This document shows, piece by piece, positions 7,452 through 28,977 of a DNA stretch of 64,000 nt. The stretch's first letter is position 1, and each line of letters starts with the position of its first letter. The stretch lies in NCBI GenBank assembly GCA_011525665.1, contig WYAU01000012.1, positions 1 through 64,000 on the forward strand, read 5' to 3'. Both the position numbers and the translations under genes were made by a program. The notes beneath the pieces are model-generated. The model searched no databases and had not been told where the DNA came from. It worked only from the letters and a program-made list of their open reading frames with translations. This DNA is from Candidatus Brocadia sp. (GTDB taxonomy: Bacteria > Planctomycetota > Brocadiia > Brocadiales > Brocadiaceae).

Positions 7452-8264
7452 ATGGACTACAAAATTAACAGACTTTCCGATTACTCCGATGACAGTTTGC
7501 TCAATGAACTCAAGCGAGTAGCAAAGCGGATCGGGAAAGATATCCTGACCCAAAAAGATTTTAGTCAGCATTCTAAGACAAGCCATAGCACAATTGTTAA
7601 AAGGTTTGGATCATGGAACTCTGCCTTAGAACGAGCAGGGCTTCATGTTGGCAGAAAAGCTAACATATCTACTGAAGACCTATTTAGTGAAATCGAGAAT
7701 GTTTGGAATCACCTTGGACGTCAACCACAATATAGGGAGATGGAGCGATTTGGAAGATTCTCATTGAAACCCTATGAGAATAGATTCGGAAGTTGGATAA
7801 AAGCGGTCGAAAAATTCGTTAAGTGGAAAGAAGACAAAGGACCTATAGTTGAAAAAGAATTGAATACCATTAGCCCGGAAATTCTAATTGATACTGTTAA
7901 GGAACGAAAAAAAGTCAAAAAAGTTGAATATGGAGAACCAATAGATTTCTTAGGTCTTCGCCATGCACCATTAAATGAACAAGGTGTTGTATACCTATTT
8001 GGTATCCTCAGTAGAAAACTGGGATTCATTATCGAAGCTGTTAGAACGGATTTCCCAGACTGTGAAGGGAAAAGGGAGATACCAGGAAAACCAGGTAGGT
8101 GGGAAAGGGTGTCTATTGAATTCGAGTTTAAAAGCTCCCATTTCAAAGATCATGACCATAACCCCGGCGAATGTGATGTCATTGTTTGCTGGGAAAATGA
8201 CTGGAAAGATTGTCCTACTGAGGTAATTTCATTAAAGGAAATAATGCTAAAGGCAAAAAAGTGA
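7452..8264 (+). CDS. homing-endonuclease-associated-repeat protein, putative nuclease
   Basis: 270 residues. The N-terminal half holds two repeats of the homing-endonuclease-associated type, each ending in an RFGSWNSALERAG or RFGSWIKAVEKF motif. These are DNA-binding helical repeats known from HNH and other nuclease proteins. The C-terminal half has no HNH motif. Its conserved-looking block (SIEFEFKSSHF, then PGECDVIVCWENDW) resembles a restriction-endonuclease-like core with E-x-K and D residues; that is an inference. The stop is followed 5 nt later by an attC-like structure. Upstream is repeat-rich DNA, which suggests a mobile or cassette-borne gene. Substrate and biological role are unknown. 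Confidence 0.7.
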   Translation: MDYKINRLSDYSDDSLLNELKRVAKRIGKDILTQKDFSQHSKTSHSTIVKRFGSWNSALERAGLHVGRKANISTEDLFSEIENVWNHLGRQPQYREMERFGRFSLKPYENRFGSWIKAVEKFVKWKEDKGPIVEKELNTISPEILIDTVKERKKVKKVEYGEPIDFLGLRHAPLNEQGVVYLFGILSRKLGFIIEAVRTDFPDCEGKREIPGKPGRWERVSIEFEFKSSHFKDHDHNPGECDVIVCWENDWKDCPTEVISLKEIMLKAKK

Positions 8265-10383: not shown

Positions 10384-12915
10384 ATGTCTACCAGCCTCCT
10401 CAGTCAAAATTCACCTCCGACGTGTCCAACTGACGTTGTACCGGGAAATCAGACTATGCCAGGAAATCAACCGGATCAAAAATTATTCGCAGAGGTGGTC
10501 GTCAATATCCCTTTAGATAAGGTGTTTCATTATAGCATCCCTCTCCATTTACGAGAAAATCTTGCCGCCGGGATGCGGGTAAGAATACCCTTTGGCAACA
10601 AGATAATGACAGGGTTTTGTGTCGGATTTACTGATACCCCATTTACCGACAAAACAAAAGATATTATAAGTATAATCGATAAGACCCCATTGATGGATGA
10701 CATCATGCTGAAGATTACCCGATGGTTATCGTCTCATTACTGCTGCGGGTGGGGGGAAGCGATCTATGCCGTTATTCCGCCTGTGGTACGCAGTCGGGTG
10801 AAAGAGAAACAGGACACTTTTGTAAAATGTAGCGGGCATACCTTATCTCTCAATCAGGAAGCCCTCATACAGATGAAAACCCGTGCACCAAAACAGGCCA
10901 AGGTACTGGAAATCCTTTTAGAACATCCGTCTGAAATAAGCGCCAAAGAATTGATCCGCATCAGCGGCTGCAAGATGCCCGGCCTTCGTCAACTGAAAAA
11001 GAAGGGTTTTGTCATTCTTGAAAACAAACTCCCTGATGATGCAAGTATGCCGCGTACTGTCGACTTATTGCAGCAACACTTAACCCTTATCCCGGAGCAG
11101 CAAAACGCCTTCGATATCATCTGCCAAAAACTCTCAGGGCTTTCCCATCGCAACCAAATCCCATTATCTTCAACCACCCCTCCTTCCCCTCCTTCGCAAG
11201 GAGGGGATAAAGGGAAGGTAAAAGAATCAAAGCAATTCCATGTTCCTCCCTCACAAGGAGGGGACTCCGCCGTGAGCAATCAGTCGGACGAACAAGGGGA
11301 GGTAAAGACATTAAATTGGGGAAGGGAATCTTTACCGTATGATACAACACAGATCAAGCCGGGCGTTATATTGCTTCACGGCATTACCGGCAGCGGGAAG
11401 ACGGAGCTCTACCTTCAAACCATAGCAAAGGTGCTCGAAGAGGGCCGTAAGGCCATATACCTCGTCCCTGAAATATCCCTTACCCCGCAAACCATTCACA
11501 GAATAACGGCACGATTCGACAGGATAGCCGTATTACACAGCAATCTCCTGGGAACTGTCCACGAGTCACAATGGAACGATATTAAAGAGGACAAGGTGGA
11601 TATCGTCATAGGCGCGAGATCCTCCATATTTGCCCCCCTGAAGAACGTCGGGTTGATTATCATAGACGAGGAACACGAAAATACTTATAAACAGGAAAAT
11701 AATCCGCGATACAATGCCAGAGATATCGCCGTTCTCAGAGCGACTTACGAAAATGCCCTGGTTATTATGGGCACGGCCACGCCCTCCCTGGAAAGTTACT
11801 ATCAGGCGCTGAACGGCATCTATGAAAAAATTGTCCTTTCCAAAAGAATCGGCGAACGGCAACTCCCGCCCGTCGACATTGTCGATATGAGGGAGGAAGT
11901 CCGCAAACGCCGGGGATACAACATTATTTCCCAACGGTTGCAATATTACATGAGACAATCCCTTGCCAGAAATGAACAGGTGATCTTGTTTTTGAACCGG
12001 AGAGGGTTCGCGCCGTACATTCACTGCAAACGGTGTGGATTTGTATTAAGGTGCAAGCGATGTGACATCCCCATGACCTTTCACAAAAAATTCAATGCTA
12101 CGGTATGTCATTATTGCCACGCGGAAGCCCATCCGCCGGAATCATGCCCTGACTGCCTGGCCAATACTATTAACTATCGTGGGTTTGGGACGGAAAAAAT
12201 TGAAGACGAAATTAAGGCCAAGTTCCCCAATTATAAAATCATACGGATGGACAGCGATTCCATGCGTGTACGCGATGCCCACGAAAAGGCCTTAACTGCA
12301 TTTGAGCGGGGGGAGTTTCCGATATTGCTTGGTACACAGATGATCGCAAAGGGATTGGATTTTCCGAACGTCACCCTGGTGGGGGTGATATCCGCGGACA
12401 CGATCCTGAACCTGCCTGATTTCCGTGCAAGCGAACGGACATTCCAACTCATTTCACAGGTGGCAGGGAGAACGGGCAGGGGGTCAAAGGGCGGGCGGGT
12501 GGTGGTGCAATCCTTTAACCCCGCGCATTACAGCATCACGTATGCCGCCACCCATGATTATGAAGGGTTTGCAAAAAAAGAACTGGAATACCGAAGGCAA
12601 TTGAATTATCCCCCATTCGGGAAACTGGCACGGATTATCTTCCGCGGTCCGCAGGAAGAGAAAACCAAAGAAAAATCCTTTATCGTTGGAGATAAACTGA
12701 AAGAATTCGCAAAAACACAGGGGAAGCGTCTGGAAGTACTTGGACCGTCACCTGCCCCCATGACGAAAATCAACAATCAGTTCCGATGGCATATCTTCGT
12801 AAAGGCACAAAACCATACGAGTATTCACAACGCCATTCACAGCGTTGCGGATATGTTAAAATCGTCAAAAAACGTACAAATAATGGTCGATGTTGATCCC
12901 TCCATGATGTTATGA
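10384..12915 (+). CDS. priA: primosomal protein N' (PriA helicase)
   Basis: 843 residues. The N-terminal DNA-binding domain starts near FAEVVVNIPLDKVFHY. The helicase core has Walker A GITGSGKTE at about 333-341 and DEEH at 428-431. Eight zinc-binding cysteines follow (CKRC, CKRC, CHYC, CPDC), then QMIAKGLDFPNV and QVAGRTGRG. PriA restarts stalled replication forks. An extra segment of roughly 60 residues just before Walker A (about 262-325) contains a repeat-derived stretch (TPPSPPSQGGDKGK, PPSQGGDS), so a dispersed palindromic element sits in frame here. The last codons (VDPSMML-stop) form the left attachment site of the element that follows; the coding sequence is intact. Confidence 0.96.
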   Translation: MSTSLLSQNSPPTCPTDVVPGNQTMPGNQPDQKLFAEVVVNIPLDKVFHYSIPLHLRENLAAGMRVRIPFGNKIMTGFCVGFTDTPFTDKTKDIISIIDKTPLMDDIMLKITRWLSSHYCCGWGEAIYAVIPPVVRSRVKEKQDTFVKCSGHTLSLNQEALIQMKTRAPKQAKVLEILLEHPSEISAKELIRISGCKMPGLRQLKKKGFVILENKLPDDASMPRTVDLLQQHLTLIPEQQNAFDIICQKLSGLSHRNQIPLSSTTPPSPPSQGGDKGKVKESKQFHVPPSQGGDSAVSNQSDEQGEVKTLNWGRESLPYDTTQIKPGVILLHGITGSGKTELYLQTIAKVLEEGRKAIYLVPEISLTPQTIHRITARFDRIAVLHSNLLGTVHESQWNDIKEDKVDIVIGARSSIFAPLKNVGLIIIDEEHENTYKQENNPRYNARDIAVLRATYENALVIMGTATPSLESYYQALNGIYEKIVLSKRIGERQLPPVDIVDMREEVRKRRGYNIISQRLQYYMRQSLARNEQVILFLNRRGFAPYIHCKRCGFVLRCKRCDIPMTFHKKFNATVCHYCHAEAHPPESCPDCLANTINYRGFGTEKIEDEIKAKFPNYKIIRMDSDSMRVRDAHEKALTAFERGEFPILLGTQMIAKGLDFPNVTLVGVISADTILNLPDFRASERTFQLISQVAGRTGRGSKGGRVVVQSFNPAHYSITYAATHDYEGFAKKELEYRRQLNYPPFGKLARIIFRGPQEEKTKEKSFIVGDKLKEFAKTQGKRLEVLGPSPAPMTKINNQFRWHIFVKAQNHTSIHNAIHSVADMLKSSKNVQIMVDVDPSMML
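11172..11265 (+). repeat. palindromic repeat inserted in frame in priA
   Basis: About 94 nt beginning AACCACCCCTCC, with CAAGGAGGGGATAAAGGG in the middle and a second CTCACAAGGAGGGGAC at the end. It shares most of its sequence with 24146-24230 inside the octaheme cytochrome gene and has the same plus-strand orientation. It encodes about residues 263-294 of PriA, rich in Pro, Ser, Gly and Lys. Confidence 0.8.
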
Positions 12916-12922
12916 AAACGGC
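12898..12922 (+). other. attL, left attachment site in the 3' end of priA
   Basis: 25 nt beginning CCCTCCATGATG, identical to 16619-16643. Similarity extends to about 37 nt with two mismatches. It spans the last codons and stop of priA plus the ATGA that could start a downstream gene. Confidence 0.85.
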
Positions 12923-13370
12923 CATTTTTGCCATTTTTTATAAGTGACTGGAAGCGTGTCTTTTATGACTGTAATATTTTGCACTAAAACAACTTACGAT
13001 TTAATTTCAATTCCTGCCAATTCCTGTGGATTCCGACTGTTTCCAATGGAGTTGACTACGTTTTGACTACAATTTGACTACAGTTGATGAAACATGAAAC
13101 CTATTGAGGAGAAACAGATACCCCCAACCCCCTTTAGAGGCCACCCCTCCTGTCATATGTATGGTCAGATTGCTAACTGTTTTCTTTTGATGTGATACTA
13201 TTTTCATGGCATTCAAGGAAATTTCATTCTTGTATGTTCTTGCCAGTTTTGATATGTATTTATGATTAGGTACGACATAAAAAGTTGATTATCAACGTTG
13301 CTTAAGTTTGTTTTTCGATTTTTTTCCATTAAAATTTCTTTCCGAAACCTTTTAAACCGGAGTCACGAAA
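12923..13370. other. left end of the integrated element, non-coding
   Basis: About 450 nt without a gene. It carries the TTTGACTACA repeats at 13052-13086 and a C-rich repeat fragment near 13121-13153 (CCCCCAACCCCC type). The stretch upstream of the first HTH gene is AT-rich and is the likely promoter region. Confidence 0.55.
13052..13086 (+). repeat. integrase arm-type direct repeats, left end
   Basis: Three copies of TTGACTAC at 13052, 13063 and 13074, an exact 11-nt period (one helical turn). The last 24 nt (13063-13086) are identical to 16518-16541 near the right end. Direct repeats at both ends close to att sites are what arm-type binding sites of lambda-like integrases look like. Confidence 0.65.
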
Positions 13371-14111
13371 ATGGGACATAAAAGAAGACTTAGGCGCACC
13401 GATGACCTTAAAATCCTCGAATTATATGCAGAAGGGAAAACACAAAAGGAGATCGGTGAAGTTTTTGGCGTTACAGATGTAGCTATAAGCTTAAGATTAA
13501 AAAAGATTCTCCCTTTGGTGAAGGTTGTTAAAGAAAAAAGGTTTTTATCCCGTGAGCCACTCGACATGCAGTTGCTTCAGGATTTAAAGAATGCCAATAC
13601 TGTCCAAGAAGAAGTGCATACACAATGTCCTAAAACTGCTAATGAGAATAACATAATCTCGCCAGAGCACAATGGTAATAATGATAGTAATACCGTAATG
13701 GATGTGGTGGATGTTGAACCAGAAGAAGTTAGAGAATTGGGCGATTTAATGAGTGCTTGCGGACTAAACAAGGAATATCGGTTGCAGAGATTAAAGCGTT
13801 GTATAGACCACCCTGACCCTGGCGTAGTCTTAAAGGCCTTAGACCAGTCGTGGAAGCTGGATGGAAGTTATCACAACGATAAAAATATAAACATCACTGG
13901 AATAAACATAGCAACAATAGTCGAGTCTAACTGGAATAACTCTCAAAGGATTAAACATTTCCTTACACAACGAGCACGGAATGTCGGAATGTGTCAATCC
14001 TTCAAGGGTAGCCATAAATCAACCGGTGAGGAAAAGCCGAGAACCCAAGAGGTCTTATATTGCAATTTTGAATCAACAAGGACACGGTACTTATTTGATG
14101 GACTACTATAA
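13371..14111 (+). CDS. HTH protein of the integrated element, possibly small-terminase-like
   Basis: 246 residues. The N-terminus has a helix-turn-helix (LKILELYAEGKTQKEIGEVFGVTDVAISLRLKKI, about residues 13-47). The middle is polar. The block DPGVVLKALDQSWKLDG near residues 147-163 resembles phage terminase small subunits, where similar text follows the HTH. The last 70 residues look less coherent, and a different reading frame is also open there (13981-14181), so a frameshift near the 3' end is possible. It is the first gene after attL. Function unproven. Confidence 0.6.
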   Translation: MGHKRRLRRTDDLKILELYAEGKTQKEIGEVFGVTDVAISLRLKKILPLVKVVKEKRFLSREPLDMQLLQDLKNANTVQEEVHTQCPKTANENNIISPEHNGNNDSNTVMDVVDVEPEEVRELGDLMSACGLNKEYRLQRLKRCIDHPDPGVVLKALDQSWKLDGSYHNDKNINITGINIATIVESNWNNSQRIKHFLTQRARNVGMCQSFKGSHKSTGEEKPRTQEVLYCNFESTRTRYLFDGLL

Positions 14112-14177
14112 TTTCTTGTTCTTTCTTATGTGCTTTGAGCTTTTACGGTGGATTCTTTTTGGGCAGTATTGGTCAAG

Positions 14178-14282
14178 TTAGCCATGTTTGTGCTTCTTTT
14201 CCTGTCTTGTGATATAGAAATACATTACCCATAAGGCTACAATCCCTACCCCGAAGATTATTAAAAGGTTGATTTCGTTCAT
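14178..14282 (-). CDS. 34-residue membrane peptide
   Basis: Begins MNEINLLIIFGVGIVALWVM and ends in a basic tail (RQEKKHKHG). One transmembrane helix is predicted by eye. Its ATG overlaps the stop of the upstream minus-strand gene by 4 nt (ATGA), so coupled translation is likely. No known family recognised. The tight coupling and clear membrane-plus-basic-tail layout argue for a real gene. Confidence 0.5.
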   Translation of the reverse strand: MNEINLLIIFGVGIVALWVMYFYITRQEKKHKHG

Positions 14283-14467
14283 TTGTCTTTGTCCTCTCTT
14301 TGTTCTATTTTAAAGGCAATGAAAAAGGCTGAACCTGTAAGCAGAATACCAAAGATTGTAACAAGTAAACTAAATTTATGAGAAACGAATTGTCCTAAAA
14401 TCAACGTAGCAAATGAGAGCTTACCAATATCGTAAATTGTCTTTGCTAAGTTTTCGTATTTCTTCAT
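14279..14467 (-). CDS. small two-helix membrane protein, DUF6722-like
   Basis: 62 residues starting MKKYENLAKTIYDIGKLSFA, with two hydrophobic helices (about 16-28 and 33-50) and a charged tail EQREDKDK. The layout resembles small membrane proteins annotated DUF6722 on mobile elements; this family link is from memory and weak. I chose the internal ATG because the upstream open frame overlaps the divergent HTH gene. It is transcribed opposite to the rest of the element, with the 14468-14553 gap as a divergent promoter region. Confidence 0.55.
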   Translation of the reverse strand: MKKYENLAKTIYDIGKLSFATLILGQFVSHKFSLLVTIFGILLTGSAFFIAFKIEQREDKDK

Positions 14468-14553
14468 TTGTTCTGTAATATAATACCAATTACACCAAAA
14501 CACGTCAAAAGAAAAAGGAATAGATAAATACACATAAGGATCGAGGTAACGCA

Positions 14554-15054
14554 ATGACTGAATCTGATAAACCAATAGAGGCTGTCCCTGCCGAAGATGT
14601 TGAGGTAATTTCTGATAAAGATATAGACAAACCACAGAAAGACATTCCTATTGAAACTTTAGTTTCCCTAAGAAACAAAGGGCTTTCTTTTGAGCAAATT
14701 GCCAGGATTACCGGATGTTGTAAACAAAATGTTCACCAACGCTTAGAATCTATTGGATATAGTAAGGAAAGATTAGAAAACTTTAAAGAAAGCAGGGCGG
14801 ACGTCTTTGCGTTTATGCAATCGAAGCTACTAAACTCGATAGACAATGCCGCAATTCAAAAGATGCAACCTTATCAACGGATCATTGGAACGGGGATTCT
14901 TTACGATAAGGAAAGGCTTGAGCGGGGGCAAAGCACGGGGATTATCGACATTACCACTACCATAAGAAGCATCGAGGATTTGTCGGCACGGGAGAAAATT
15001 TTGGAAGCACAATTTCGAGAGCTCACAGAGAAAAAGAAATCAAAAGCTAAATAA
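14554..15054 (+). CDS. second HTH protein of the integrated element
   Basis: 166 residues. An acidic N-terminus leads to a helix-turn-helix, LVSLRNKGLSFEQIARITGCCKQNVHQRLESIGY (about 36-69), then a helical region (KLLNSIDNAAIQKMQPYQRIIGTGILYDKERLERGQST) and a basic C-terminus. The combination recalls phage small-terminase or regulatory proteins. After its TAA stop the same frame stays open for 38 more codons and contains RCTGCGG, a zinc-ribbon-like fragment without its own start codon. Confidence 0.6.
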   Translation: MTESDKPIEAVPAEDVEVISDKDIDKPQKDIPIETLVSLRNKGLSFEQIARITGCCKQNVHQRLESIGYSKERLENFKESRADVFAFMQSKLLNSIDNAAIQKMQPYQRIIGTGILYDKERLERGQSTGIIDITTTIRSIEDLSAREKILEAQFRELTEKKKSKAK

Positions 15055-15217
15055 AAATATTTTTGCGATATAGGTCTATCCCACAGAGATTACGAATTAG
15101 AGCGGTATATCGGCAGACCTTCCGGGAATCCAAAAGGTTACCGGTGTACGGGCTGTGGCGGTTTAGGGTAGCGATATTGTCTTGCTTTAGGGAATAACGG
15201 GCTTACAAATAATTTGA

Positions 15218-15451
15218 ATGAAAATGTTCACAATGAAACGTTACGCAAATACAAAAGAAGTTTCTGAATATACGCCCTTACCCGTGAAAACTCTGTATGA
15301 ATGGGCAAGTTTAAGGCGTATTCCTTCTATTAAACTGGGACGTAGGGTATTATTCGATCTGGATGATATAAACTCTTTCATGGCTTCCCTGAAGCGTGAT
15401 ACGGGGCACTCTGAGAAAATTGTCAAAGAGGTTATTGCCAATGCACGCTAA
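15218..15451 (+). CDS. xis: excisionase-like HTH DNA-binding protein
   Basis: 77 residues. The fold is the MerR/excisionase winged-helix type: YANTKEVSEYTPLPVKTLYEWASLRRIPSIKLGRRVLFDLDDINSFM. Such proteins bend DNA at att sites and steer integrase toward excision. Position immediately upstream of the integrase gene supports an Xis role. A second ATG four codons in (MKRYANTK) may be the true start. Confidence 0.75.
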   Translation: MKMFTMKRYANTKEVSEYTPLPVKTLYEWASLRRIPSIKLGRRVLFDLDDINSFMASLKRDTGHSEKIVKEVIANAR

Positions 15452-15513
15452 AGCATATATAATTCTGAACATAGACATAAAGACACCTTCCGGTCACGGG
15501 AAAGGAGGGGAGA

Positions 15514-16570
15514 ATGTTTAAACGTGACGGGACATGGTGGGCGTGTATTCGGTACCGGGGCAAGAAAATCCAAAGAAGCCTTGAAACCGACAACAAAAAA
15601 CTTGCTGAAAGTATTGAATCCAAACTTAGAACGACACTCATAGAAGAAAAATATTTTGACCGGTGCGAAGGGGAAGTAAAAACGTTTCAGGACATGGCAG
15701 ACCGATTTATGTTAGAGTATGCGCCGAAAAACTCGAAAAGGACGCAAATGCATTACAAGACAACGCTGAGTCATGCACTGCCTTTTTTTGGTAGCATGAA
15801 GCTTACTTCAATTACACCTAAAAAGATAGCTGAATATAAGGCCATGAGGTATAAGCAAGGGGATTAAACCCGGTACGTTTAATCTGGAACGGGCGATGTT
15901 TTCAAAGATGTTTAACGTTGCTATACGGGAATGGGAATGGTTGAAAGAAAATCCCGTCAGTAGGGTTTCCAGGGATAAGGAGAATAACCAGCGTGACAAG
16001 TGGTTATCTGTGGATGAAGAACGGCGGTTATTGGAGAATATGCCAGAGTGGCTAAGAGAAATAGTCTCGTTAGCCTTACACACAGGTTTAAGGCAAGACG
16101 AATTGCTTTCATTGGCGTGGGACAGGGTAAACCTTCTGCAAAGGACAATCGTTATTCAGAAGTCAAAAAACGGAAGGGCGAGGACTATCCCTTTAACCAG
16201 TGTTGCAATGGGAATCCTGGAAGAAAAGGCGCGGATAAGGAATCTAAAAGCCGACCTGGTGTTTACAAATACTGTGGGTAAAAAAATTGGTAAAAGCTGG
16301 GTGTTGGAAAATTTTATCATTGCCAGAAAGAAGACTGAGCTTGATGACTTTCATTTCCACGACCTCAGACATACCTTTGCTACCCGGCTAGCACAAAGGG
16401 GAGTTGATTTGTATACTATTTCTAAATTGCTAGGCCATGTCAACATCACCATGACACAGCGTTATGCACATCATTGTCAGGAAAGTTTAAGGGCGGGAAT
16501 TTCGGTTTTAGAAAAAGTTGACTACAATTTGACTACAGTTGGGGAAAACAGAAATGTCTTGAATGCCTGA
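15514..16570 (+). pseudogene. int: tyrosine recombinase (integrase), one frameshift
   Basis: Two adjoining frames make one phage-type integrase. 15514-15867 encodes the AP2-like arm-binding and core-binding domains (TWWACIRYRGKKIQRSLET through KIAEYKAMRYKQ). A second frame, open from about 15857 to 16570, continues with GIKPGTFNLERAMFSKMFN and the catalytic domain. Catalytic residues are all visible: TGLRQDE (Arg), a Lys in the beta-hairpin (VIQKSKNGRAR), HDLRHTF (His-Arg), LLGH and the nucleophile in MTQRYAHH. The break is at the GGGG run near 15857-15860. It could be an inactivating mutation, programmed slippage or a sequencing error. The right-hand arm-type repeats are encoded within its C-terminus. 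Confidence 0.85.
16518..16541 (+). repeat. integrase arm-type direct repeats, right end
   Basis: Two TTGACTAC units at 16518 and 16529 (11-nt period), identical over 24 nt to 13063-13086. They overlap the end of the integrase coding sequence and lie 78 nt before attR. Confidence 0.65.
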
Positions 16571-16618
16571 AAGCCTTGATTTTACTGCTATATTCAGGTG
16601 ATTTGTGGTTTTGTTGAC

Positions 16619-16643
16619 CCCTCCATGATGTTATGAAAACGGC
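16619..16643 (+). other. attR, right attachment site
   Basis: 25 nt identical to 12898-12922. It recreates the last codons and stop of priA, followed by ATGAAAACGGC, as would be left by site-specific integration into the priA end. Confidence 0.85.
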
Positions 16644-17509
16644 AATTTTAGAATTTGGATCACGGGCGAAGGTAAACTACCTTTGCATCACTATCTGAGG
16701 GGTAACGATACCCATAAAAAGGTTGCGATATTTGAGCAACTCCGCGATTTAACAAACCTCCCGTTTCCCCGTTATACAGGGATTGACCTGAAAGCCTATC
16801 CCAGGAAGAATACCGTCCCCATTCAGTTTTCCCGGGGATGTATCCGAAGATGCAACTTTTGCTCGGAAAGACTTCTCTACAAAAATTTCAGGACAAGACC
16901 CGTCAACAGTCTTCTTGACGAAATCCGATATCACATGACAAACAACGAAACACACAATACTTTGTTTTTTACGATTCCCTGATAAATGCCGATCTCAGGA
17001 ATCTGGAGGCATTATGTGACGGCATCATTGCGCATTTTGGATCAATCCGTTGGGAGGCACAGATAGCGATCAGGAATGATATGGCCCAGAAACTCTTTGA
17101 AAAGATGAAACAGAGGGCTGTTACAGCCTGTTTGTTGGATTGGAGTCAGGGTCAAATAACATCCTGAAAAACATGAACAAGGATTTTACCTCAGATGACG
17201 CCCGTTATTTCTTTACTGCCCTTCATCAGGCGGTATCTTTTTCGGTGTAAGTATTATTGTTGGTTATCCTGGTAAGACCGAGAGGGATTTTCAAAATACC
17301 CTTGATTTTATTGCTAAGTATAAAAATATTATACCTCAAATTGCTCAAATAAATCCCTTTACGTATTATGACGGAACACCGGCTGATGAAACGGCAGATT
17401 ACAGGACAAACCCAACAGCCCTGAAAAGAATGGAAATCTTTGTTAAAGAAGTCAGGAAGCATAAACTTAAGCATACCAATGCCTCTATTGGAAATCTGAG
17501 AGAGAAATA
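16644..17509 (+). pseudogene. decayed radical SAM protein gene, 5' truncated and frameshifted
   Basis: Reading across frames gives a radical SAM protein. It starts abruptly at about WITGEGKLPLHHYL, then LPFPRYTGIDLKAYP, SRGCIRRCNFCSE (the CxxxCxxC motif), FYDSLINADLRNLEALCDGII, GLESGSNNILKNMNK and VSIIVGYPGKTERDF, and ends at NASIGNLREK. Shifts of frame are needed near 16970, 17111 and 17229. The layout matches B12-binding-type radical SAM enzymes, whose N-terminal cobalamin-binding domain would be the missing part. The gene begins right at attR. In the uninterrupted chromosome it may have started at the ATGA overlapping the priA stop. Confidence 0.75.
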
Positions 17510-17740
17510 GTTTTACCCAAAAACGCTGCCTGAGACAGCATAATTTAACGTTCAAGGAATTTCAAATTTCTTTGGCAGGAGCCAACTCCCGTTGGAGGCC
17601 AGGCGCATGTACACCGTCGTGCATTGCCAATTGCCGTCAGAAGACGTCCACTACCTTCGCATTACGAAAAAGTTGCCGAAGACTTACGTTAAGTCATTCA
17701 TTATAATTGCGGCCTTTGGAATACACCGGACGTTATAAAT

Positions 17741-21781: not shown

Positions 21782-22177
21782 TTAGATCAATTTTCCAGAC
21801 TTTCCCTCATCATCGTCATCATCGTCAGACATAACGGTGCCGGCCAAAGCGGTCTTCAGGGAGCCGATCGTCAATTCATCCGACTTCCCTTCCTTGTCCT
21901 TGTCCTCATCCTCTGACATTATAGGACCGGCGAAAGCAGTCTTTACCGAATCACTCATCAATTCTCCTGACTTTTCGTCCTTTTCCTCATCATCAGACAT
22001 AACGGGGGCAGCGAATGCGGTTTTTACCGAACCGATCATCAATTCATCCGACTTCCCCTCTTTGTCCTTGTCCTCATCTTCCGCGATGACAGAGCTAACG
22101 AACGAACAATTTACAACACCCGCACTCACCATTAAGACACTTACAGCAACAAGACTATACCCTAAATTCTTAAGCAT
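21782..22177 (-). CDS. secreted acidic tandem-repeat protein
   Basis: 131 residues from MLKNLGYSLVAVSVLMVSAG, which has GAGGAGAGGGAA just upstream; the longer frame starts inside the promoter and was rejected. The signal peptide ends near VIA-ED. The mature part is three and a half repeats of about 28 residues: an acidic block (EDEDKDKEGKSDEL, DDEEKDEKSGEL, DDDDDDEGKSGKL) and a helix-like block (GSVKTAFA, DSVKTAFA, GSLKTALA). Apart from the repeats there is no domain I recognise. Asp-rich repeats may bind cations such as Ca2+ or Fe; this is speculation. Its nearest upstream neighbour is the octaheme cytochrome gene. Confidence 0.75.
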   Translation of the reverse strand: MLKNLGYSLVAVSVLMVSAGVVNCSFVSSVIAEDEDKDKEGKSDELMIGSVKTAFAAPVMSDDEEKDEKSGELMSDSVKTAFAGPIMSEDEDKDKEGKSDELTIGSLKTALAGTVMSDDDDDDEGKSGKLI

Positions 22178-22496
22178 TTCCCTCTCCTCCTCATGCTTAT
22201 TGGAAATCAAGCCATGCCACCGGGAACGCTCCCGGTATCGCCGGCTGTCTTCACTTATATAAATGTCATATAATTGACTCGTTGTCAACAGGTATTTTTT
22301 GTAATTCCCACAAGGATTATGACATACCTTCTGCTTCTTTCTCTCGCCGTTGTACCATTGATCCTACACCAAGTTTTTCTGCCCGTGACCTTTATTAGAG
22401 CTCCGTAAAAATCACGGGTATCATTAACAACGCGCACCTCTTTCTTTAAAACTTAAAGTCCTGATAGTAATTGCATGAACCACATTTTCCTATTTA
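22178..22496. other. leader region of the acidic repeat gene, non-coding
   Basis: On the minus strand TTGACA lies at 22283-22288, with AT-rich sequence (TTATAT) downstream, suggesting a promoter whose -10 position is not certain. A short inverted repeat (CGGGAGCGTTCCCG) occurs in the leader. No gene seen. Confidence 0.4.
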
Positions 22497-26243: not shown

Positions 26244-27758
26244 TTATCTCCCCATTCGTATCAAACCCAGATGCGGTTCCTTGAAGGAATAAAGGTTGTG
26301 AACGCTGCCTTCAATCTGGGCGGATTGTGACCGCATTTCAAAACGAAGCGTGCCCTCATAGAGGCCGGTATGAAGTTCCTGTATGCTTTTAAGACCGAGT
26401 TCCTGCAATGAATGGAGCAGGCTTTGCATCAGATACTGAACAAGATGGATAACCGAACCCTTATCGACCACCGTGCCGGTAACACCTTGGGCGACTTTAA
26501 TCCGGTCTTCAGCCGAGAGATACCTTTTTCCGCCTCCCTTTTCCATAGCTTCATGAGATGCCATGCCCCGGTATTTTTTTACGCGCACCCCCCCCTCGTA
26601 GAAATACTCACCGGGAGATTCACTGGTGCCTGCAAGCAAACCACCCATCATAACGGTACTGGCGCCGAGGGATAATGCCTTCACAATGTGCCCGATATTG
26701 GCTATACCACCATCTGCAATCACGGGAATATTGGCGTATTCCCGGGAGAATTTTGCAGTGTGGTAGACGGCTGAACCCTGTGCTCTCCCAACCGCAAGGG
26801 TGTCCTGCGTAATGCAGATAGACCCGCTACCCATACCTATACGAAGGGCATCGGCTCCTGCATCGATCAATGATTTGCACTGTTTGGCCGTGACGACATT
26901 TCCCCCCACCACATCAAGCTGGGGGTATTTTTGCTTGATGTATTTGATCGTGTTAATTTGAAAAACAGAATCACCCTGTGATGAATCGATCACGATAACA
27001 TCAACGCCGGCCTTCACCAGTTCAGCCAGCCGTTCTTTGTCGTCTTCCCGTGTCGAGAGCGCAGCCCCGACGAGGAGTTGCTTGTCCTTGTTTTTCGATG
27101 AAAAAGGGAAGTCCTCGTTCTTCAGTAAATCGGTACGACTCATAAGAGATACGAGACGGCCCTGTTTGTCGACCAGGGGAAGCTTTCCCTTTTTGCTTTC
27201 CTTAAGTATTCTGTTCCCCTCGGCAAGGGAGATACCTGCCGGTGCAGTAACCAATTGAGTGGTCATCACCTCTTTTAACTTCTTGGACCGGTTTTCCTCA
27301 AAATCTATATCCCGCTTGGTTACGATACCGACAAGTTTTGAATTTAATGTACCATCCTCTGTAATGGGGATACCTGAAAAGCCGTAGGTTTCTTTGATAG
27401 TATCGACGTCCCTGATGGTGTGGTTTGGGCTAAGAACAACGGGTTCTGTAATAAATCCGTTCTCGAATCTTTTGACCCGGCGCACTTCTTTCACCTGTTC
27501 CTCGATGCTGTTGTTATAGTGAATAATACCGATCCCGCCAAGCATGGCCATGCTGATTGCCATCCTCGATTCCGTTACGGTGTCCATGGGAGAGCTCACC
27601 ACGGGCCTTTTGATCTTAATATTGCGGGTCAATGTTGTTTCAAGACTGATCTTTTCGAGACTAAAATCGATATGACCCGGCAGCAGGATAAAATCATTAT
27701 AAGTGACACCCCCGCGTCCTTCAAAAAATGTTTTAGCATCCAGTCCGTTAGGCGCCAT
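26244..27758 (-). CDS. guaB: IMP dehydrogenase
   Basis: 504 residues. Start [22 protein letters not shown], then [28 protein letters not shown]. Two CBS domains lie at about 95-215. The catalytic loop [11 protein letters not shown] has the active-site Cys near residue 310. It also has [29 protein letters not shown] and YRGMAS at the C-terminal end. It oxidises IMP to XMP, the first step to GMP; purA elsewhere in the window takes the other branch. The gene stands alone, with a 316-nt upstream gap. Confidence 0.97.
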
Positions 27759-28074
27759 AAAAGTTGTTTTATAACCTCCGATAATTGTTATTGTGCTGAA
27801 ATGTGTTTCTCATACATCTTTAGAGTAAAGATGCCAGGAAATTCACGTTCTGTGTTGCCGGCGTAAAGGTGTAAGTTCTCGCCGGATTCCCGTTTTCACG
27901 ACAATGACTTTCCCGTTCTGATAGCTGGCAATGTGTATAGTATACCGTTCAAGTCATCCGTGTGCAAGTCGTGCAGTAATGCACCTTCCGCTCCGTTCCC
28001 GTGACTGCCGGATATTTCTGTATGACTGTACAAAGCATTATAATTATACCCCCCAGCATCAGCAAGGATTTTGT
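27759..28074. other. guaB upstream region, no gene seen
   Basis: 316 nt with no coding signal. On the minus strand, GGAGG lies before the guaB ATG. A palindrome GTATAGTATAC occurs at about 27937-27948. No riboswitch class could be recognised by eye. Confidence 0.4.
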
Positions 28075-28977
28075 TTACAGTTCTCCGATTACCGTAATCT
28101 CGGTCTCCAGGACAAACCCCAATTTCTGCTTTACTTCCCGTTGCACAAACCGGATTAATTCTAAAACATCGGCAGCCGTGGCATTACCGGTATTAACGAT
28201 GAAGTTAGCATGTCTTCCCGATACCTCCGCCGCACCAATACGCAAGCCCTTGAGTCCCGCCTGCTCTATCAACCTTCCCGCCCCAATATCCTTGATTTTT
28301 TTAAACACCGAACCACAACTGGGATATTCCGATAATTGCGGCTGTTTAACGTTGCGCCAGGCCATATTTGTGTCCATAATTGCCCGTATTTCCTCTTTCT
28401 GCCTTGCACTAAGCTGAAATGTAACATCCAGGACGATGTCTTTCCGCTTCTGTAAGATACTCTTGTCATAGCTAAACTGAAAGTAATCGACCCCGACCGT
28501 GCAAAACTGCCCTTCTTCTGTAAGAACACAACTGGACCGAACTATTTCTTCAATAAATACCGTCCGCTTTCTGTCAGGCGACAGGAAGTGCAGGTTCTGC
28601 CACAGAGCCCCGCCAACGGTACTGGGAATGCCGACAAAGTGTTCGAATCCGGATAATCCACGGCGGCAACATTGCTCTATAAGATCGGCAATAATTGCAC
28701 CACTTTCAGCTACTACTTTGCCGTTATCAGAGAAGGCGACTTTATTTGCTAAATTACGGATAACCAGCCCACGAAATCCCTTATCCGTAACTAAAATATT
28801 AGCCCCGCAACCGAGCAAAAAAAAGGGGATAGCATTACGACGGGCCTCAAATAAGGCATGTATTAATTCATCAATGGTATGAACCACGACAAATAAATCA
28901 GCCGGCCCACCGATTTTGTATGTGGTAAATGGGGCCAGGAGTTTATTCTTTTCCAGATTTGGAATGTTCAGTAACAT
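28075..28977 (-). CDS. murB: UDP-N-acetylenolpyruvoylglucosamine reductase
   Basis: 300 residues from MLLNIPNLEKNKLLAPFTTYKIGG; an upstream in-frame start adds 14 unrelated residues. FAD-binding segments: FFLLGCGANILVTDKGFRGLVIRN and GIPSTVGGALWQN. The active-site region is YPSCGSVFKK, then GRLIEQAGLKGLRIGAAEVSGRHANFIVN. MurB makes UDP-MurNAc in the cytoplasm, and murA in this window makes its substrate. This is relevant to the debate on peptidoglycan in planctomycetes. Confidence 0.95.
   Translation of the reverse strand: MLLNIPNLEKNKLLAPFTTYKIGGPADLFVVVHTIDELIHALFEARRNAIPFFLLGCGANILVTDKGFRGLVIRNLANKVAFSDNGKVVAESGAIIADLIEQCCRRGLSGFEHFVGIPSTVGGALWQNLHFLSPDRKRTVFIEEIVRSSCVLTEEGQFCTVGVDYFQFSYDKSILQKRKDIVLDVTFQLSARQKEEIRAIMDTNMAWRNVKQPQLSEYPSCGSVFKKIKDIGAGRLIEQAGLKGLRIGAAEVSGRHANFIVNTGNATAADVLELIRFVQREVKQKLGFVLETEITVIGEL

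Follow-up and report, generated by a model that had tools for sequence, protein, structure and literature searches.

Genes and repeats at the 3′ end of priA

We analysed a 64,000-nt stretch of DNA (hereafter the window) in which priA, the gene of the replication-restart helicase, occupies positions 10384-12915 of the plus strand. Its ORF is intact and ends in TGA, and its Pfam PriA domains are complete, including a PriA_C match (PF18074, 9.8e-24). The 3′ end of the gene is an attachment site: the last priA codons and the stop lie within a 25-bp sequence, CCCTCCATGATGTTATGAAAACGGC, which occupies 12898-12922 and recurs exactly at 16619-16643, these being its only two copies in the window. No chance match was expected for a repeat of this length, even when three mismatches were allowed. 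The similarity extends into wider blocks on the plus strand (attL, 12891-12928; attR, 16612-16649), which are identical at 36 of 38 nt. An earlier note on this DNA had described identical 25-bp direct repeats flanking a block at 12898-16643 and had named the priA 3′ end, not a tRNA gene, as the target. Both observations held, as the repeats form an exact and unique pair, the left one is the end of priA, and ARAGORN detected no tRNA gene in the window.

Between the repeats lie, in order, a 246-aa HTH ORF (HTH1), two minus-strand membrane peptides, a 166-aa HTH ORF (HTH2), an HTH_17 excisionase-like gene and a tyrosine integrase gene. HTH1 (13371-14111, plus strand) is an in-frame fusion: an HTH protein forms its first 190 or so residues, and residues 209-246 (13995-14111) are the tail of a D12 DNA adenine methyltransferase (Dam). 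The 34-aa single-pass peptide tm2 (14179-14283, minus strand) has 67-73% identical copies next to the Dam tail in two other elements, L175 and L192. The 62-aa membrane protein tm1 (14279-14467, minus strand) is weakly DUF6722-like (PF20482, 0.0016, below the cut-off) and has relatives in the same place in L175, L176, L185 and L187. HTH2 (14554-15054, plus strand) belongs to a satellite/phage family with homologues beside an integrase gene, and usually Dam, in Brocadiaceae elements. The excisionase-like protein (Xis; 15218-15451, plus strand; PF12728, 1.1e-9; phrog_66, 8.6e-9) is followed by the tyrosine integrase (15514-16570, plus strand; PF14659; PF00589, 3.1e-38), which is read as two ORFs, 15514-15867 and 15896-16570. 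The genes listed in the earlier note were thus all found, but the integrase is split by a frameshift and HTH1 is chimeric. No structural gene was recognised in 12898-16643 among the ORFs or in phage-family and Pfam searches, and a primase or replication gene is absent from the window copy.

HTH2 is possibly a small terminase, as the TerL and portal genes of phage contig L139 are preceded by a homologue. This assignment is tentative: the AlphaFold model of HTH2 (pLDDT 73.5, pTM 0.35) had no significant fold match, either in the PDB or among viral proteins, and its matches in family libraries were mostly generic HTH ones, leaving the gene context in L139. Searches of HTH1 and HTH2 against phage records returned no match.

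The integrase carries a +1 frameshift at about 15854-15867, where one extra base stands in AAGCAAGGGGATTAAACCC, and the window copy as assembled has no intact integrase reading frame. The homologue in the related genome G004 is intact (351 aa) and shares 78% and 89% identity with the two parts, the higher value being for the C-terminal one. The dN/dS ratio against G004 was about 0.1 on either side of the frameshift (about 0.08-0.11 when xis is included), indicating that the lesion is either very recent or an assembly error; in the latter case, the element could still move. Programmed frameshifting at the GGGG before the stop was also considered and set aside, since no relative that was read shares it and an error or recent mutation is simpler.

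Empty and occupied priA sites in relatives

The C-terminus of priA was located in related genomes and the sequence downstream was read; the empty sites described here come from relatives, none from the window species. In nine genomes with an empty site (G011, G013, G014, G018, G019, G021, G022, G029 and G031), guaB begins 39-312 nt after priA. The same spacing was found in other families of the order (G043, G048 and G050), which makes priA-guaB the ancestral order. In G004, guaB is displaced to 9.07 kb from priA by an 8.8 kb insertion, and in G015 to 11.5 kb by an 11.3 kb insertion, both carrying xis and int genes related to those of the window. G015 belongs to the same genus as G022, whose site is empty, and the G015 flanks, joined at the core, align base by base with that empty site; over the right flank, identity was 89%, against a shuffled mean of 54%. 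Furthermore, a public Jettenia ecosi contig (L039) contains a related integrase gene followed by the same core and guaB, and in G002, G008, G009 and G026 the conserved left end is still present, followed by varying amounts of element. These results confirm that the window element is an integrase-mediated insertion at the priA 3′ end, which is an unusual, recurrently used insertion site. The earlier note would have been contradicted by relatives without empty sites or junction variation; ends with and without an insertion were both found, and the junctions vary. The literature searched, which covered few subscription papers, contained no report of priA as an attachment site. Elsewhere in the window's own genome, a displaced left end of a priA-type element with HigBA (L005, G000:C5:98114-98269) lies away from priA and has no core.

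Occupation of the site changes the priA stop codon. TGA ends priA in six of the seven genomes that have the left end (the window, G004, G008, G009, G015 and G026), the exception being G002, and in these it is followed by AAACGG or a similar sequence. All tabulated genomes without the left end have TAA or TAG. The right junctions of G004 and G015 retain the TAA version, which places the crossover upstream of the stop and the origin of the new stop in the element. As read from these junctions, the relatives show that integration replaces the TAA stop of priA by an element-encoded TGA. The proposal that the repeat restores the last priA codons and stop, leaving the helicase intact, therefore stands, since ORF and domains are whole, with the refinement that the element itself supplies the TGA. 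An attP that carries a replacement for the end of its target gene is a known principle (PMC10111431).

Two further features of the window priA were noted. PriA ends in DPSMML (12901-12915), against DPYMML in most relatives; both repeats contain the Ser codon, which may have arrived with an element. Most relatives lack an in-frame insert found at 11137-11350 (PriA residues about 252-322). Fragments scattered through other genomes match residues 262-310, so priA seems to have taken up a small dispersed repeat.

Attachment-site architecture and the integrase clade

From a comparison of attL and attR in G004 and G015, we infer a minimal crossover core of ATGATGTTAT (12904-12913). It is followed by the conserved left end of priA-type elements (12916-13086, plus strand), which shares 75-88% identity with the priA-proximal sequence of G002, G004, G008, G009, G015 and G026 and ends in three arm-type repeats of TTGACTAC with 11-bp spacing (13050-13085). 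Two further copies, again spaced by 11 bp, lie within the 3′ end of int (16516-16540, plus strand). The G004 element has GGTCAC-type repeats at both of its ends, with the spacing and places seen in the window element, so that the repeats covary: TTGACTAC at either end in the window, GGTCAC-type at either end in G004. Such a matched change is expected of arm-type sites that would be bound by the element's own integrase, and the presence of tandem repeats at both ends strengthens the interpretation of the junctions as att sites.

The right junction departs from this picture. Its repeat keeps the element-type sequence GAAAACGGC on the far side, unlike those of G004 and G015, where the host TAA side follows. 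Beyond it, the flank is rearranged and guaB is inverted (26244-27758), so the original attB cannot be rebuilt there. A degenerate stretch upstream of the inverted guaB (guaB region, 26244-28075) is common to the window and G008 (score 110, shuffled maximum 62); in G008 it adjoins guaB and reads as Rep- and integrase-like remnants. The best inference from these sequences is that the slot was used by more than one element, that the right repeat is what remains of the left end of a former neighbour, and that the inversion came afterwards. A former tandem neighbour would also account for the length of the repeat, which is 25 bp in the window but about 14 bp in G004.

A tree of 83 integrases placed the four that are associated with priA in one clade, with a support of 100/100. 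Sixty-two of the 83 abut a tRNA gene, as does none of the four in the priA clade. Within this clade, L136 forms a long branch, fitting a decayed integrase, and the priA group stayed on one side of every bootstrap tree. The tree is most simply read as a single switch of the integrase target from tRNA to priA. No integrase relative in viral contigs was closer than 33-39%.

The wider family is also represented in the window's own genome. A sister xis-int element at tRNA-Gln (L194, G000 C52:20721-23145) encodes a Rep-like protein. A Rep of this type, 92% identical, was found beside tRNA-Ala in Brocadia sp. WS118 (L044), which suggests recent transfer. Several 3′ stumps of related integrase genes (L003, L004 and L006, on G000 C71 and C44) were also observed, at least one of them beside tRNA-Ala.

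Origin of the window element

The composition of HTH1 bears on the small size of the window copy. Residues 43-190 are 63% identical to an HTH1-related protein fragment in G002, and residues 209-244 are 89% identical to the extreme end of the D12 adenine methyltransferase of another G004 element, L175 (PF02086, 9.5e-30). From 13994, the window DNA is collinear with L175 across the end of the methyltransferase gene, up to and including tm2 (83% over 293 bp). Neither a D12 methyltransferase above the family cut-off nor a Prim-Pol was found in the window genome. As the body of the methyltransferase is missing and its tail is fused in frame, an internal deletion or an equivalent recombination joined HTH1 to the tail. 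Judged from these alignments, the window copy is a remnant, and its small gene set reflects loss, not design. The suggestion in the earlier note that the minimal gene set marks a new small element class was accordingly abandoned, given the Dam-tail fusion, the frameshifted integrase and the siblings of 8.8 and 11.3 kb at the same site.

The closest sibling of the window element is the G004 priA element (L123, 8.8 kb). It shares with the window element the attachment site, left end, Xis (82% identity), integrase and paired arm repeats, but differs in having an intact integrase, HigBA, a Prim-Pol (1.4e-26), a DnaB-like protein (3.1e-6) and a small terminase (TerS, phrog_57, 1.6e-27), and in lacking the Dam tail, membrane pair and HTH2. 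Its ORFs included no recognisable capsid, portal or large terminase gene, and no Rep or conjugation gene was noticed. The G015 element carries methyltransferase/restriction-type and helicase-like genes, not a satellite set, so not all members of the priA clade are satellite-like. The two membrane genes and HTH2, together with the Dam tail, belong to a module that also occurs in other Brocadiaceae elements with a different integrase, some of which carry a Prim-Pol or the G004-type terminase. A search of viral contigs for relatives of the G004 small terminase, which might mark a helper phage, found none. Satellite status, as proposed earlier, is plausible for the clade through the genes of the G004 sibling, but the window copy itself offers only the Dam-tail/membrane/HTH2 module. 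On the basis of one intact sibling and the shared module, phage-satellite ancestry of the window element is likely.

Among described elements, Gram-negative PICIs, including fis and tRNA types (PMC10111431), resemble the window element in having a tyrosine integrase and a small HTH excisionase/AlpA-like gene; here the int plus alpA/xis module is present, with Xis (PF12728) beside a broken int. In PICIs, attP restores the target gene and tandems are known (PMC10111431), and their replication and TerS genes find a parallel in the G004 sibling. In contrast, the window element is 3.7 kb long, has no primase left, targets priA and resides in an anammox planctomycete. The PICMI of Vibrio, with int, alpA and primase next to fis (PMC10803314), is alike in its very small gene set, its integrase and PF12728/AlpA-type gene, and its position beside a protein gene. 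However, the window element falls outside the PICMI definition, as it lacks the primase that is a core gene there and has priA rather than fis as its site, and its small size results from deletion. The window element thus represents a familiar type of element, in decayed form and at an unusual site.

We consider it likely that the locus holds an integrative element in decay, which probably descends from a phage satellite and whose integrase belongs to a Brocadiaceae clade specialised for the priA 3′ end. A lambda-type tyrosine integrase would bind the arm sites, arranged in tandem with 11-bp spacing, at either end of the circular element, and would recombine attP with the last priA codons through the short core (about ATGATGTTAT) that attP contains. 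The attP would bring a replacement priA end with its own TGA stop, so that priA stays functional, and Xis would direct excision. The window copy formerly had more genes, in this scheme, until an internal deletion fused HTH1 to the Dam methyltransferase tail and a one-base insertion broke the integrase. Unless it were served in trans by a related integrase, the copy as assembled would then be stranded.

Three other explanations were weighed. That the repeats arose when the priA end was duplicated by chance, without site-specific integration, has a negligible probability. The right repeat is indeed element-like on its far side and closer to priA (GTTGACCCC) than to the attP side of G004 and G015, so this junction is not a textbook attR. 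Relatives, however, have empty and occupied sites with the same core, the same integrase clade and paired arm sites, and the joined flanks of G015, set against the empty site of G022, argue decisively against chance duplication.

A compact and still mobile element, such as a minimal PICMI-like satellite, would require the frameshift to be an assembly error and the HTH1-Dam-tail ORF to be a functional regulator. The purifying selection on xis and both integrase parts, the position of the lesion within a G run, the fused ORF remaining open and the precedent of a six-gene satellite (PMC10803314) all fit such an element. We regard it as improbable, because the window element has no replication gene, a Dam tail without a Dam body points to deletion, the siblings at the site measure 8.8-11.3 kb, and two other priA-clade integrases, L136 and L039, are also damaged or shortened. 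It is less improbable, though still unlikely, that the locus is the remnant of an ordinary genomic island or plasmid-like integrative element, not a phage satellite, which gained the Dam-membrane-HTH2 module by recombination. Rep-type elements occur in the wider integrase family (C52 of the own genome, L044, L051, L066 and L078), the G015 cargo is of another type, and HTH2 lacks a significant terminase fold match. Against this stands the closest sibling, in G004, with its Prim-Pol, DnaB-like protein and small terminase and no Rep or conjugation gene noticed. For the window element, we therefore retain the reading as a decayed integrative element with probable satellite ancestry.

Small elements related to the module recur in Brocadiaceae (L175, L176, L177 and L184-L193, in G001, G003, G004, G009, G013, G015, G017, G020, G022, G026, G030 and others). 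They carry Dam, tiny membrane genes, a small terminase or HTH2 and a tyrosine integrase, several also a Prim-Pol, and look like an undescribed satellite family. They share the Dam tail, tm1/tm2 and HTH2 with the window element, in the best cases with order and orientation kept, but their integrases are only about 30% identical, several have a complete Dam and Prim-Pol, and they are not at priA. The L194 element, by comparison, shares the related xis-int pair (about 66%) and differs in its Rep-like gene and tRNA-Gln site. Tentatively, and with somewhat less than even confidence, we suggest that Brocadiaceae host their own undescribed satellite family (Prim-Pol, small terminase/HTH2, Dam, tiny membrane pair and integrase), one clade of which switched once from tRNA to the priA 3′ end, supplying the stop, with the window element as a crippled member. 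Within the coverage stated above, the literature search returned nothing relevant on satellites in Planctomycetes. Anammox bacteria drive nitrogen removal and are studied mainly in enrichment cultures; the same search yielded little on their phages and satellites. With its empty and occupied relatives and the intact G004 integrase, the recurrent priA site gives a starting point in the search for live elements and their helper phages in reactor metagenomes. An integrase clade that moved from tRNA to an important protein gene and rewrites its stop codon also offers a clean case for the study of target switching.

Several other features of the window were recorded. Directly after attR lies a 5′-truncated and frameshifted radical-SAM gene (16664-17512), homologues of which, of about 435-445 aa, are intact elsewhere in the genus. 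Upstream of priA, 7452-8264 encodes a protein with two homing-endonuclease-associated HNH_repeat domains (PF18780, 6.2e-33), and an ORF at 21782-22288 contains several near-identical acidic repeats (DEDKDKEGKSDEL...).
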